DNA from: Gemmatimonadota bacterium
GTDB taxonomy: Bacteria > Gemmatimonadota > Gemmatimonadetes > Gemmatimonadales > GWC2-71-9
Length of the DNA stretch: 64,000 nucleotides
Reading direction: 5' to 3'
Assembly: GCA_040388535.1 (NCBI GenBank)
Contig: JAZKBR010000009.1
Span: forward strand, 7,736 to 71,735
Made by a program: the position numbers and the translations under genes. Of this stretch, positions 2,725-30,925 are shown piece by piece. Every line of letters starts with the position of its first letter. Position 1 is the stretch's first letter. Under the pieces are notes generated by a model that saw only the letters and a program-made list of their open reading frames with translations, ran no database searches and was not told the DNA's origin.

Positions 2725-3426
2725 CTACGCCGCCTTCTCCGCACCAGGCGCCGGCGCGGGAGTAACTGCCTGCGCCTCCTCCTTGCTCTTCTTCACAAAC
2801 GGCCCGAGCACGTTCCGAGCACTCTCCCACGCCGCGAGGTTCTCGGCGTCGCCGTTGTAGCGCGTCGCCATCAGCCCATCGAGCACGCCGACCAGTGCGA
2901 CACACTCTTCGGTGACCGCGGTGAGATCGGCGCGGGCACCAACGTGGCCGACGCGACCGCTGTGCGCCGTGCTGGTCGCGGCATCGAATTGTTCGATGGC
3001 CTTGGTGAGCTCGGGGATGAGGGTATCGCCGAGGCCGAAGGGGAGGAGGAGATCGGTGCGGGCGGTGGCGCCGGCGAGCATCGACTTGGCCGCGGTGAGG
3101 AAGGCGCGGTTGGGGATGTTGGTGCGCGGCATCACGATCTGCCCGGCGAGTTCCGGGTGGGCGCGGGTCGCGAGGCCGGCGACGCGGGCGAGGTGGCGGA
3201 GCAGCCGCTCGTGCATCGTGTGCCGGAGATCGGCGCGGCGGGCGACGGCGGCACTCTCACCACCGACGCCATCGAGCTCCTGGATGGCGAGGGTGTCGGC
3301 GCGAGCGACGCGCTCCTCGAGCCGAGTCACGATGGTGGTGTACCCGGCGTCGGTGGAGGCGTGGGTGCGCGCGAAGTCGAGCGCACGGGCCGCCATCGAC
3401 AGCTTCCTGCGAATCTTGCCTTGCAT
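2725..3426 (-). CDS. Alpha-helical protein of unknown function
   Basis: 233 residues from the ATG chosen by a strong AGGAGG sequence 5 nt upstream; the open frame extends 17 codons further but without such a signal. The sequence is rich in Ala, Arg, Glu and Leu and predicted helical throughout, with no signal peptide or membrane segment, and ends in a Pro/Ala-rich tail. No family was recognised. It is transcribed divergently from the gene starting at 4396, with a 21-bp minisatellite filling the space between them. Confidence 0.65.
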   Translation of the reverse strand: MQGKIRRKLSMAARALDFARTHASTDAGYTTIVTRLEERVARADTLAIQELDGVGGESAAVARRADLRHTMHERLLRHLARVAGLATRAHPELAGQIVMPRTNIPNRAFLTAAKSMLAGATARTDLLLPFGLGDTLIPELTKAIEQFDAATSTAHSGRVGHVGARADLTAVTEECVALVGVLDGLMATRYNGDAENLAAWESARNVLGPFVKKSKEEAQAVTPAPAPGAEKAA

Positions 3427-3437: not shown

Positions 3438-3660
3438 GGGGGGATGACACGCTCGTCGGGGGGCGTGGCCACGTCATTGAATTGAGAGGGATGCTGTCGG
3501 CGAAAACCCGACCGTCGTCGACGGCGGGAGGGAGTGCGACGGTCGTGCCACGCGTGCGCGGATGACGGACGGGGGGGCTAAGTCGTTGTGAGTATTGAGC
3601 AATGCGGCGAAATGGTTGGACAGGATGATGGATGGTGGATGATGGATGGTGGAGGGGTGA

Positions 3661-4246
3661 GTGTCCTTGACGAAGGACAGAGTGACCGGAACGATGGACA
3701 GGGTTGCGGTGACGAATGGGTCGAACAGAATGACGGATGACCGATGATGGATGACGGATCGGTCGGATCGGATGACGCGCGGGGTGGATCGCGTGACGGA
3801 ACGCCCGGAATTGTTAGCGCGCGGGGTGGAATTGTTAGCGCGACGGGTGGATCGCGTGACGGACGGGGTGGTCGGCTTGACGCGGGGGCTGGGTTGCGTG
3901 ACGCGCGGGGTGGTCGGCGTGACGAAACGGGTGGAATTGTTAGCGCGAGGGGTGGAATTGTTAGCGCGCGGGGTGGTCGGCTTGACGCGGGGGCTGGATC
4001 GCGTGACGGACGGGGTAGATCGCGTGACGGACGAGAGTGGCGGCGTGACGGACGGGGTGGTTCGCGTGACGAGGGAGGGTGGCAGCGTGACGGAACGGTT
4101 GGATCGCGTGACGAAAGAGGGTGGCGGCGTGACGGACGGGGTGGTCGCGTGACGGGAGAGGGTGGCGGCGTGACGGACGGGGTGGTCGCGATGACGGAAA
4201 AGGGTGGCGGCGTGACGGAGGGGGTGTTCGGCAGACGGAGGGGGTG
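3661..4246. repeat. 21-bp tandem repeat array (minisatellite), about 27 units
   Basis: From 3766 to 4246 about 23 units follow one another with a period of 21 bp (two late units are 20 bp); a more decayed continuation with the same spacing runs back to about 3661. Most units contain GCGTGACGGACGGGGTG; a second type has ATTGTTAGCGCG. The type-B pairs at 3808-3849 and 3934-3975 are 126 bp apart, and units 3871-3891 and 3976-3996 are identical, showing duplication of blocks. As 21 is divisible by three and the unit has no stop in several frames, long frames stay open on both strands; none shows a credible start and they are treated as non-coding. Confidence 0.85.
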
Positions 4247-4395
4247 GGTCTTGGGTTGGTTGGGAGTGTCGCGTTGTAGGGCGGTATAGCAGTATGGCCG
4301 AGGAGATCGAGGAAGGAGCCGTTGAGGTTCGCTCAATCACCGACCAGTCTACCTTTCCCGAGAGCCTCCCGGTCAACCCCACCAGGGACTGTAGA

Positions 4396-5079
4396 ATGTC
4401 ATTGTCCTTCACCGTGCTCCTCTTCCAAGTGATCGCTGCCGCTCCTGTTGCGAGCCCGGCGCGACTCGTTGGTGACACGCTGATCCTGAGCGACATCGGG
4501 GTACGCTTCACCGTCCCTCCACTTTGGATGGGCCGACCACCCGCGGGCGTGACCGGCTTTGCTCCCGGTCCAGGTCGGTGGGGTTGCCAACTCTCGGATC
4601 GGGGCCCGCTAGCTGAGAGAGTTCTAGTTCAGCCATCACGACTGCGCGAGCTCGGACGGGGCCTCTTCGGCCCACTGCAGTCATCCCAGAGCGCACTGGA
4701 CTCGCTTGTTCCTCGATCTGCACTCGTCGCGCACGTTGGCGGATCACCGTTCAACGGTCAGTGTATCGCACCTCAAATTCACTTGTACGTTGTTGACTCG
4801 GCTCGCGTGACTCCGTCGACTTGGCTTGCACGGGCTGGTGCTGCAATCGGGGTCCGGATCAAGTCCGTTGAGCGCAGCCAGGCGGATTCTGCGGGCTGGC
4901 AGATTCTGCGCTTCTCGTGGGTGGAGGACGACACCGACTTCATTCACCCCGAGAGCATGCAAGTATGGATCCGGAGAGTTGGCGCACGCCTGTTGGTGCT
5001 CGGCATGATGGACCCCGAATTGCAAGCGCGTGGTGATGCCTTCGAGTTCGTCTCGTCGATGAGGGTGTCCGGCCCGTAG
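4396..5079 (+). CDS. Exported protein of unknown function
   Basis: 227 residues. The ATG chosen begins a typical signal peptide (SLSFTVLLFQVIAAAPVAS); a longer frame starting at 4294 would add 34 charged residues ahead of it and is unlikely. The mature part is mixed alpha/beta with a conserved-looking end (SMQVWIRR..LLVLGMMDPE). No catalytic motif or family recognised. Its upstream region is the minisatellite array. Directly downstream, in the same frame after the TAG, lies what looks like a beta-propeller gene remnant. Confidence 0.65.
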   Translation: MSLSFTVLLFQVIAAAPVASPARLVGDTLILSDIGVRFTVPPLWMGRPPAGVTGFAPGPGRWGCQLSDRGPLAERVLVQPSRLRELGRGLFGPLQSSQSALDSLVPRSALVAHVGGSPFNGQCIAPQIHLYVVDSARVTPSTWLARAGAAIGVRIKSVERSQADSAGWQILRFSWVEDDTDFIHPESMQVWIRRVGARLLVLGMMDPELQARGDAFEFVSSMRVSGP

Positions 5080-8897: not shown

Positions 8898-9547
8898 AGC
8901 GAGGGCTCCTCGTGCTGTTGTTCTTTGTGGCTTCAAAGCACCTGGCGGCGCAGCAATGCCCGCGCGGGATCGACTACGTGACAACCTTCGGCAGCGACAC
9001 TATCAGCGTGGAGCACGGCGAATTCCGGAGTGACTCGCTGGTGGGAAGCCTGCTCGGCATGGGCGGCCCGAACCAGTGGAGTTTCGTCCGCTACGAGGCC
9101 GTCTTCGGCGCCGATGGAATGTTCCGCGCCTTCGGCCAGGCGATCTGGCCCATCGCCGGAGACAGCGTCAAGGCGCCGGCGCAGGTGAGCGTGGTCTCCT
9201 TCGGCCCGCGCACCATTACCGCCACCGTCACCGATGTCAGGCGCGGCGCACAGGTGCAGACCGATTCTGTTGCGGCCGGCACGCTCCCATATATGGACAA
9301 CGTGCCGTTCTTTCTCGCTGCAATCGTGCGCAGGGTGGTGCTGCTGCAGCGAGACACGGTGCTGATTCCGACGCTCTGGCTGCACACGGGAGGGCATCAG
9401 GAAGTGTTCACCGTGGTGAAGCGCGGTGCCGATTCGCTCCAGATCACGACGCCACGGGTGAGTTGGCGAGTCGCCGTGAGCGATGGGCGGCTGCTGGGAG
9501 CGTTTCGGAGTGATAGTGTGAGTGTGGCGAGGGGGGCGTGCAGGTAG
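8894..9547 (+). CDS. Exported protein of unknown function
   Basis: 217 residues, GTG start coupled to the RDD gene. A signal peptide (GLLVLLFFVASKHLAAQQ) is followed by a beta-rich body with two cysteines (QCPRGI near the mature N terminus and the penultimate GACR), which could form a disulfide. No family recognised. The stop codon TAG is part of the first unit of the AGACTAG heptamer array that follows. Confidence 0.65.
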   Translation: MKRGLLVLLFFVASKHLAAQQCPRGIDYVTTFGSDTISVEHGEFRSDSLVGSLLGMGGPNQWSFVRYEAVFGADGMFRAFGQAIWPIAGDSVKAPAQVSVVSFGPRTITATVTDVRRGAQVQTDSVAAGTLPYMDNVPFFLAAIVRRVVLLQRDTVLIPTLWLHTGGHQEVFTVVKRGADSLQITTPRVSWRVAVSDGRLLGAFRSDSVSVARGACR

Positions 9548-9610
9548 ACGAGAGACGAGAGACTAGAGATTAGAGACTAGAGACTAGAGACTAGAGACTA
9601 GAGACTAGAG
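9546..9610. repeat. Heptamer array (AGACTAG)n
   Basis: Nine 7-bp units: two AGACGAG, one AGACTAG, one AGATTAG, then five AGACTAG and a partial unit. The first unit overlaps the stop codon of the preceding gene. A second array in the opposite orientation lies at 30886-30925, also across a stop codon. Confidence 0.9.
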
Positions 9611-30670: not shown

Positions 30671-30901
30671 ATGCCTTCTAGAGCAGCAACCCATCCCAAC
30701 GCGGCGGCTTTTCCGCGCGGCGTCTCCGGCCCCGCGCTGCGTGCACTGCACAACGCCGAGATCGCCTCCATGGCGCAGCTCACGCAATGGCGCGAAGCCG
30801 ACCTCACCAGACTGCATGGGATGGGCCCCAAGGTGATGGGAATCCTCAAGGCGGCGCTGGCGGAGCAGGGGAAGTCGTTGAAGGGAGTCTCTAGTCTCTA
30901 G
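30671..30901 (+). CDS. Small helix-hairpin-helix-like protein
   Basis: 76 residues. FPRGVSGPALRALHNAEIAS, MAQLTQWREADLTRLHGMGP and KVMGILKAALAEQ reproduce the helix-hairpin-helix pattern seen in the C-terminal domain of RNA polymerase alpha and related small DNA-binding proteins. Function unknown; non-specific nucleic acid binding is plausible. The last codons and the TAG come from a heptamer repeat array, so the C terminus (VSSL) has probably been altered by repeat insertion. Confidence 0.7.
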   Translation: MPSRAATHPNAAAFPRGVSGPALRALHNAEIASMAQLTQWREADLTRLHGMGPKVMGILKAALAEQGKSLKGVSSL

Positions 30902-30925
30902 TCTCTAGTCTCTAGTCTCTAGTCT
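30886..30925. repeat. Heptamer array (AGACTAG)n, reverse orientation
   Basis: Five full 7-bp units read AGTCTCT on the + strand, that is AGAGACT / AGACTAG on the minus strand, followed by a partial unit. The array begins four codons before the end of the preceding gene and supplies its stop codon. Same heptamer as at 9546-9610, inverted. Confidence 0.9.

Follow-up and report, generated by a model that had tools for sequence, protein, structure and literature searches.

We asked what could account for a tandem array with a 21-bp period that lies between two divergently transcribed genes of a Gemmatimonadota bacterium, and to which of these genes it belongs. The stretch of DNA analysed, here called the window, comprised 64,000 nucleotides, with the array spanning approximately 3660-4247 and proceeding in steps of 21 bp with one exception of 20 bp, using two types of words (Table 1). 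Tandem Repeats Finder gave periods of 21, 42, 63, 83-84, 105 and 126 bp at 3773-4247, and identity at a lag of 21 was 0.62, far above chance, compared with 0.29-0.32 at lags of 7, 14, 20 and 22. Together with the flanking genes, these results bear out a preliminary description of the locus as a 21-bp array of two unit types in a divergent promoter region. An origin of the array from 7-bp repeats was rejected, as lags of 7 and 14 were at background.

Table 1. Features of the array locus, with positions in the window, and the two sister arrays of the same genome (columns: feature, positions, strand, remarks)
Array-associated gene	2725..3426	-	233-aa all-helical protein of a multi-copy family in the phylum; without Pfam match
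Sigma-54-like -24/-12 element TGGCAC-N5-TCGC	3536..3550	-	~123 bp ahead of start codon; consensus match only
Palindrome TGTCC-N8-GGACA, possible upstream activator site	3662..3679	-	Consensus match only; similar place in homologous loci
Degenerate array edge	3623..3750	.	21-bp phase persists (TGACG/TGACC), merging into GGATGAT/GGATGGT heptamers
Core 21-bp array, ~24 units	3751..4247	.	Two words, CGTGACG (A) and ATTGTTAGCGCG (B); blocks copied at distances of 105 and 126 bp; a single step of 20 bp
Divergent neighbour gene	4294..5079	+	Start 4294 or 4396; without Pfam match; G006 homologue likewise divergent to a family member
Sister array 1			Between amidohydrolase gene and argF, own genome
Sister array 2			Between DUF1801 gene and ArsR gene, own genome

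When the same word was followed from 4213 down to 3731, all steps were 21 bp save that from 4130 to 4150, which was 20 bp, and other apparent steps of 20 or 22 bp reflected a change between A and B words. The type B word ATTGTTAGCGCG occurred at 3810, 3831, 3936 and 3957, giving B pairs 126 bp apart, while a 22-bp stretch, GTCGGCTTGACGCGGGGGCTGG, was the same at 3871 and 3976, 105 bp apart; these positions confirmed the block copying that had been proposed earlier from the B pairs and from identical units at the latter two sites. The units had about 60% of their bases in common, with strictness found in length only. Of the earlier count of about 27 strict units, the 21-bp length thus held, whereas the tally had taken in the degenerate edge at 3660-3750 and strictness extended neither to the sequence nor to the one 20-bp step.

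With 21 bp equalling seven codons, and several frames open across the array, it could be imagined that the array encodes, or once encoded, a heptad-repeat segment, and translation as a heptad-repeat protein had been named in the preliminary description as an outcome that would speak against its regulatory reading. Comparing the block copies, we found non-synonymous differences far in excess of synonymous ones in all six frames, so that no frame had a synonymous excess; the variability of unit columns was not centred on any codon position, with no third-position excess, and each of the three arrays described below for this genome contains a single 20-bp step, which shifts the frame. Judged from these patterns of substitution and spacing, the window array is non-coding, and a coding origin appears exceedingly improbable.

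The predicted structure of the protein encoded by the minus-strand gene displayed helices at residues 27-89 and 136-189 (pLDDT 87). We found no match of weight for it in Pfam, NCBIfam, PADLOC or PHROG, and no significant fold match in the PDB. A phage origin was considered and rejected, as phages gave no match and PHROGs nothing solid. Profile searching identified approximately 70 homologues in 32 of 395 genomes of the phylum, often several per genome, and proteins of the class are built of a short helix, a helix of 50-63 residues and another short helix, a set that is either present twice or joined to a following fn3-like domain. Since the homologue of the plus-strand gene in genome G006 is divergent to a family member that has no array, the array is linked to the minus-strand gene. 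At that locus (L376, G006:C28) the divergent gene pair of the window is retained with no array between the genes. In the same genome, an N-acetylmuramidase gene (PF11860) directly follows two of seven family members (L379, L380), about 850 bp past the gene start.

For analysis of the family as a whole, 1.5 kb before each of 65 members was scanned at lags of 12 to 60, with sample stretches of the window's own genome and of seven relatives serving as controls; most of the genomes are probably metagenome assemblies. The best lag was 21 or 42 in 44 of the 65 members. At a fixed threshold, the density of lag-21 arrays was 206 bp/kb upstream of the family, compared with 9.1 bp/kb in the seven relatives (400 kb) and 4.9 bp/kb in the own genome (396 kb), and the other lags tested upstream of the family, except 41/42, were at or below about 4 bp/kb. 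An array was present in 42 of the 61 upstream regions and in 27 of the 597 control chunks (Fisher p ~3e-33, with paralogues not being independent). Lag-21 segments were found in 44 of 67 members; they covered 15,840 bp on the upstream side of the genes versus 1,764 bp on the downstream side, and array-bearing members spanned 14 genera as given by genome labels. Before unrelated genes of the same genus, arrays were seen in 3 of 38 cases, all three being the known arrays of the window's genome, and as these three had been chosen for their arrays, a fair comparison is with 0 of 35. At the threshold used, about one-third of the members lacked an array, in some cases because the contig stopped short. 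In order-level relatives, arrays extended to within 60-100 bp of the gene, with gene starts taken as the starts of the profile matches. Seven loci of these relatives (L354, L365, L356, L368 in G116, L364, L369 and L327) carry an inverted repeat in the leader, immediately behind the array and a short way ahead of the ribosome site, either GGGACGC...GCGTCCC or GGACGCA...TGCGTCC.

The sequences of the arrays differed from homologue to homologue while the period stayed at 21. Co-divergence of array and protein was rejected (Mantel r 0.03), with array similarity being independent of protein identity, which indicates that period and not sequence has been kept; array composition ranged from 36 to 79% G+C, and this range together with the lacking link to protein identity again identifies length as that which is kept. 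Two further regularities did not hold up. A spacing of conserved columns by one helical turn was seen in the window array and was not general, and a strand bias was inconsistent, with C-rich strands in 32 of 43 Gemmatimonadota-type arrays versus 2 of 17 Verrucomicrobial ones.

Promoter-like elements were found between array and gene. In consensus matching within the window family, TGGCAC-N5-TYGC, which contains the GG-N10-GC core of sigma-54 promoters, was located approximately 121-137 bp ahead of the start in 20 members, with 3.0 expected upon shuffling, and a GTCC-N6..9-GGAC palindrome was found upstream of this sigma-54-like element in 18 members, with 3.4 expected. The sigma-54 gene (rpoN) is present in the window's genome, and in the Verrucomicrobial set described below the sigma-54-like motif was seen once only. 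The order of array, palindrome, sigma-54-like promoter and gene suggests that the array may modulate an activator-dependent promoter.

Searching the own genome of the window (3.72 Mb, 11 contigs) with the words of the array, we found two further arrays having the same words plus a third word, GTTTTACAA (Table 1). All three arrays begin with CACCCCCTCCGTCACGC, have about 22-25 units with one 20-bp step near the start, and are placed between divergent genes. Across their 62 units C7 and G8 were invariant and C18 nearly so, and CG..A plus the three words were common to these units; at L270, a second paralogue of this genome, the array has a different sequence. A three-unit profile gave strong matches at only these three loci. 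Arrays with the same words were found neither in nine genomes of the same genus nor elsewhere among the 395 genomes of the phylum, and in the same-genus genome G001 the pair of amidohydrolase and argF genes is present with a short intergenic region that holds no array. Among the genomes searched, the same-word arrays are thus confined to this one, which makes the array sequence lineage-specific. The family gene is absent beside two of the three arrays, and the two sister arrays could be copies that have been displaced, or else sites with a binding protein in common.

Other repeats are also found in this genome. A REP-like element, GTCACCCTGAGCGAAGCGAGGG, forms tandem arrays with periods of 42-86 bp (L014 1255-1371, 6059-6306 and 8398-8564) and adjoins genes that include the amidohydrolase gene beside the argF array. 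Two copies of a dispersed element, GACTTCGGAGGCCCCAGGCGTCGCG, lie between argF and the array next to it (L002 1975-2040 and 2220-2285), with a similar sequence seemingly found again at 350-970 in the window. Heptanucleotide satellites (GGATGAT, AGACTAG, AGTCTCT, CCCTTCC) are dispersed in the genome (window 3623-3653, 9546-9610 and 30886-30925; L016, L017 and L277-L296), and in a 396-kb sample, 23 of the 51 tandem arrays had period 7.

Before the link to the gene class was discovered, 85,000 species genomes had been scanned for GTCACG at 21-bp spacing. As an operator conserved across bacteria this motif was rejected; the blind scan gave many unrelated coding and intergenic arrays, a backward control of the phylum scan gave similar counts elsewhere, and the three arrays are specific to this species within the phylum. 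Among the matches listed in the scan, L072, L140, L065 and L124 have a class gene directly downstream of the array, with a clear family member right behind the array in L072 (labelled Deltaproteobacteria) and a weak gene match in L124 (E 0.008). The gene in L140 (Spartobacteria) encodes 208 aa with a predicted short helix, a helix of 51 residues and an fn3-like domain, the latter having fn3 matches in the PDB. Twenty homologues of this protein were collected from four Verrucomicrobial genomes, 19 of them with enough upstream DNA. Lag-21 arrays, all different, were found upstream in 17 of the 19, compared with 10 of 204 control chunks, which were taken within the same genomes as these had been found through array matches and may have a high general content of arrays. 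In one further member the array has a period of 22 bp, and L435, one of the four long arrays among the controls, lies before a class member that the homologue search had missed. The all-helical and the fn3 families have the same layout of short helix, long helix and short helix, although their alignment (hhalign E 0.0019, probability 14%) is only suggestive of homology. Many 21-bp arrays in other bacteria, such as Nostoc and Tannerella, adjoin unrelated genes. In Nostoc, Brasilonema and Tolypothrix (L094, L115, L131, L154) the arrays beside unrelated genes have CGTCACGAG words, and rumen Prevotella genomes (L051, L064, L089, L102, L138, L145, L157) contain short CGTCACGACGTGATTTCATG-type elements of 21 bp that are dispersed and vary in their words.

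Genes for small helical proteins, present in multiple copies and in at least two phyla, are hence usually preceded by arrays of 21-bp period and free sequence. We consider it about an even chance that the array of the window is a helically phased cis element controlling the minus-strand gene, with spacing being read rather than sequence. It would then make up the distant upstream portion of that gene's control region and would probably act in cis as DNA, not as message. Repeats of two helical turns would set each repeated feature on one face of the DNA, and the phased series could be bound or wrapped by the encoded protein, by a nucleoid protein or by an activator; in the window family, the wrapped array may modulate the activator-dependent promoter. 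Selection would act on spacing and not on sequence, with sequence turnover through unequal exchange being tolerated while the unit length remains 21. With the units kept the same, a standard bend model gave a greater net bend for a spacing of 21 bp than for one of 18-20 or 22-24 bp, the effect being modest; as proof, curvature was rejected, the predicted increase being small and automatic from the period. The earlier proposal of a cis-regulatory array was strengthened in that arrays precede most homologues of the minus-strand gene, and its equation of the period with two helical turns was upheld at 21 bp, while the TGACG core on which it was built is not general, as the arrays of the homologues differ in sequence. 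A broader form of this explanation, which we put forward tentatively and with somewhat less than even confidence, would be that a widespread class of multi-copy helical proteins, with or without fn3, has in several phyla an obligate control or binding element in 21-bp arrays of fixed period and free sequence, acting through spacing alone, and that this explains a large share of the bacterial satellites of 20-21 nt that have so far had no explanation.

Several other explanations were weighed against such a spacing-dependent cis element. The array could be a neutral minisatellite that arose by slippage and unequal exchange, with the gene-class link reflecting only tolerant, long upstream regions. 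Species-specific arrays with block duplications, the argF intergenic region of the same-genus genome that has no array and the richness of the own genome in heptamer satellites would all agree with this. Neutrality would lead one to expect many periods, yet only 21/42 was found upstream of class genes, there is one odd step per array in the three arrays despite about 40% divergence among units, and arrays are missing from upstream regions of other genes in the genus, which makes this explanation rather unlikely. We also regard it as unlikely, slightly more so, that the array is transcribed and that the long-helix protein of the adjoining gene binds its repeat RNA (21 nt to each unit), which would serve as a scaffold or sponge. 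Such transcription was proposed for repeats of this kind by Subirana and Messeguer (PMC8161180), and it would be in line with the long helices of 51-63 residues in class proteins, with the folding of the window array on the gene strand, which slightly surpassed that of shuffles (z -2.6), and with the close approach of arrays to the gene in order-level relatives; against it, the likely promoter of the window family sits between array and gene, the strand bias is inconsistent, and an RNA has no obvious need for a fixed length of 21 nt.

The preliminary description had instead taken TGACG for a specific operator, the number of units tuning both divergent genes. The invariant C7 and G8 and the nearly invariant C18, as well as the position of all three arrays between divergent genes, would fit with that, but homologous genes retain the period and not the motif, and the homologue of the plus-strand gene in G006 has no array, so that we find such an operator improbable.

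Certain features of the arrays are shared with known systems. Iterons of plasmid origins are direct repeats approximately 21-22 bp apart, equalling two helical turns, that are bound on one face of the DNA. The arrays studied here differ in being chromosomal, at three loci, with no origin, with a place upstream of genes unrelated in function and with a sequence that is not conserved among relatives, and proteins adjoining the arrays gave no Rep match. Promoter VNTRs and MLVA loci are tandem repeats near promoters with many unit lengths; likeness is found in the promoter-near position and in the possible variation in copy number, whereas the length is here fixed across phyla. Short tandem repeats upstream of bacterial genes are also known as the intergenic TAACTGA heptamers of Beggiatoaceae (PMC4679880), and heptamers are plentiful in the window's genome, too. 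Those repeats have a 7-bp unit and one conserved sequence at many unrelated genes, in contrast to the 21-bp unit, free sequence and single gene class found here.

The closest likeness is to the satellites of Subirana and Messeguer (2021; PMC8161180), who described non-coding bacterial repeats of a constant 20-21 nt with variable, species-specific sequence, a short shared motif and 'no obvious function', noted the two helical turns and suggested nucleoid proteins or small RNAs. The present arrays are alike in having a non-coding 20-21 bp unit and species-specific sequence; short words are common to the three same-word arrays of the window's genome, but not to that of L270, and in both cases there are several repeat families per genome. 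Their definition of at least four repeats, of which at least 60% are of equal length (±1), applies to all three arrays, each with one step off 21, as do the features of being non-coding and of constant size with variable, species-specific sequence. The class of array is already known. The difference is that the present arrays are tied to the region upstream of a single gene class and, in one family, are separated from the gene by a promoter-like element; neighbouring genes, promoters and upstream position are unmentioned in the text of PMC8161180. Nothing on mechanism was found in the limited open-access literature, within which, the earlier survey by the same authors not included, the link to a gene class that we add is apparently unpublished. 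This link makes the enigmatic satellites open to ordinary experiments, and a DNA element selected for period and not for sequence would, if true, constitute an unusual regulatory code.
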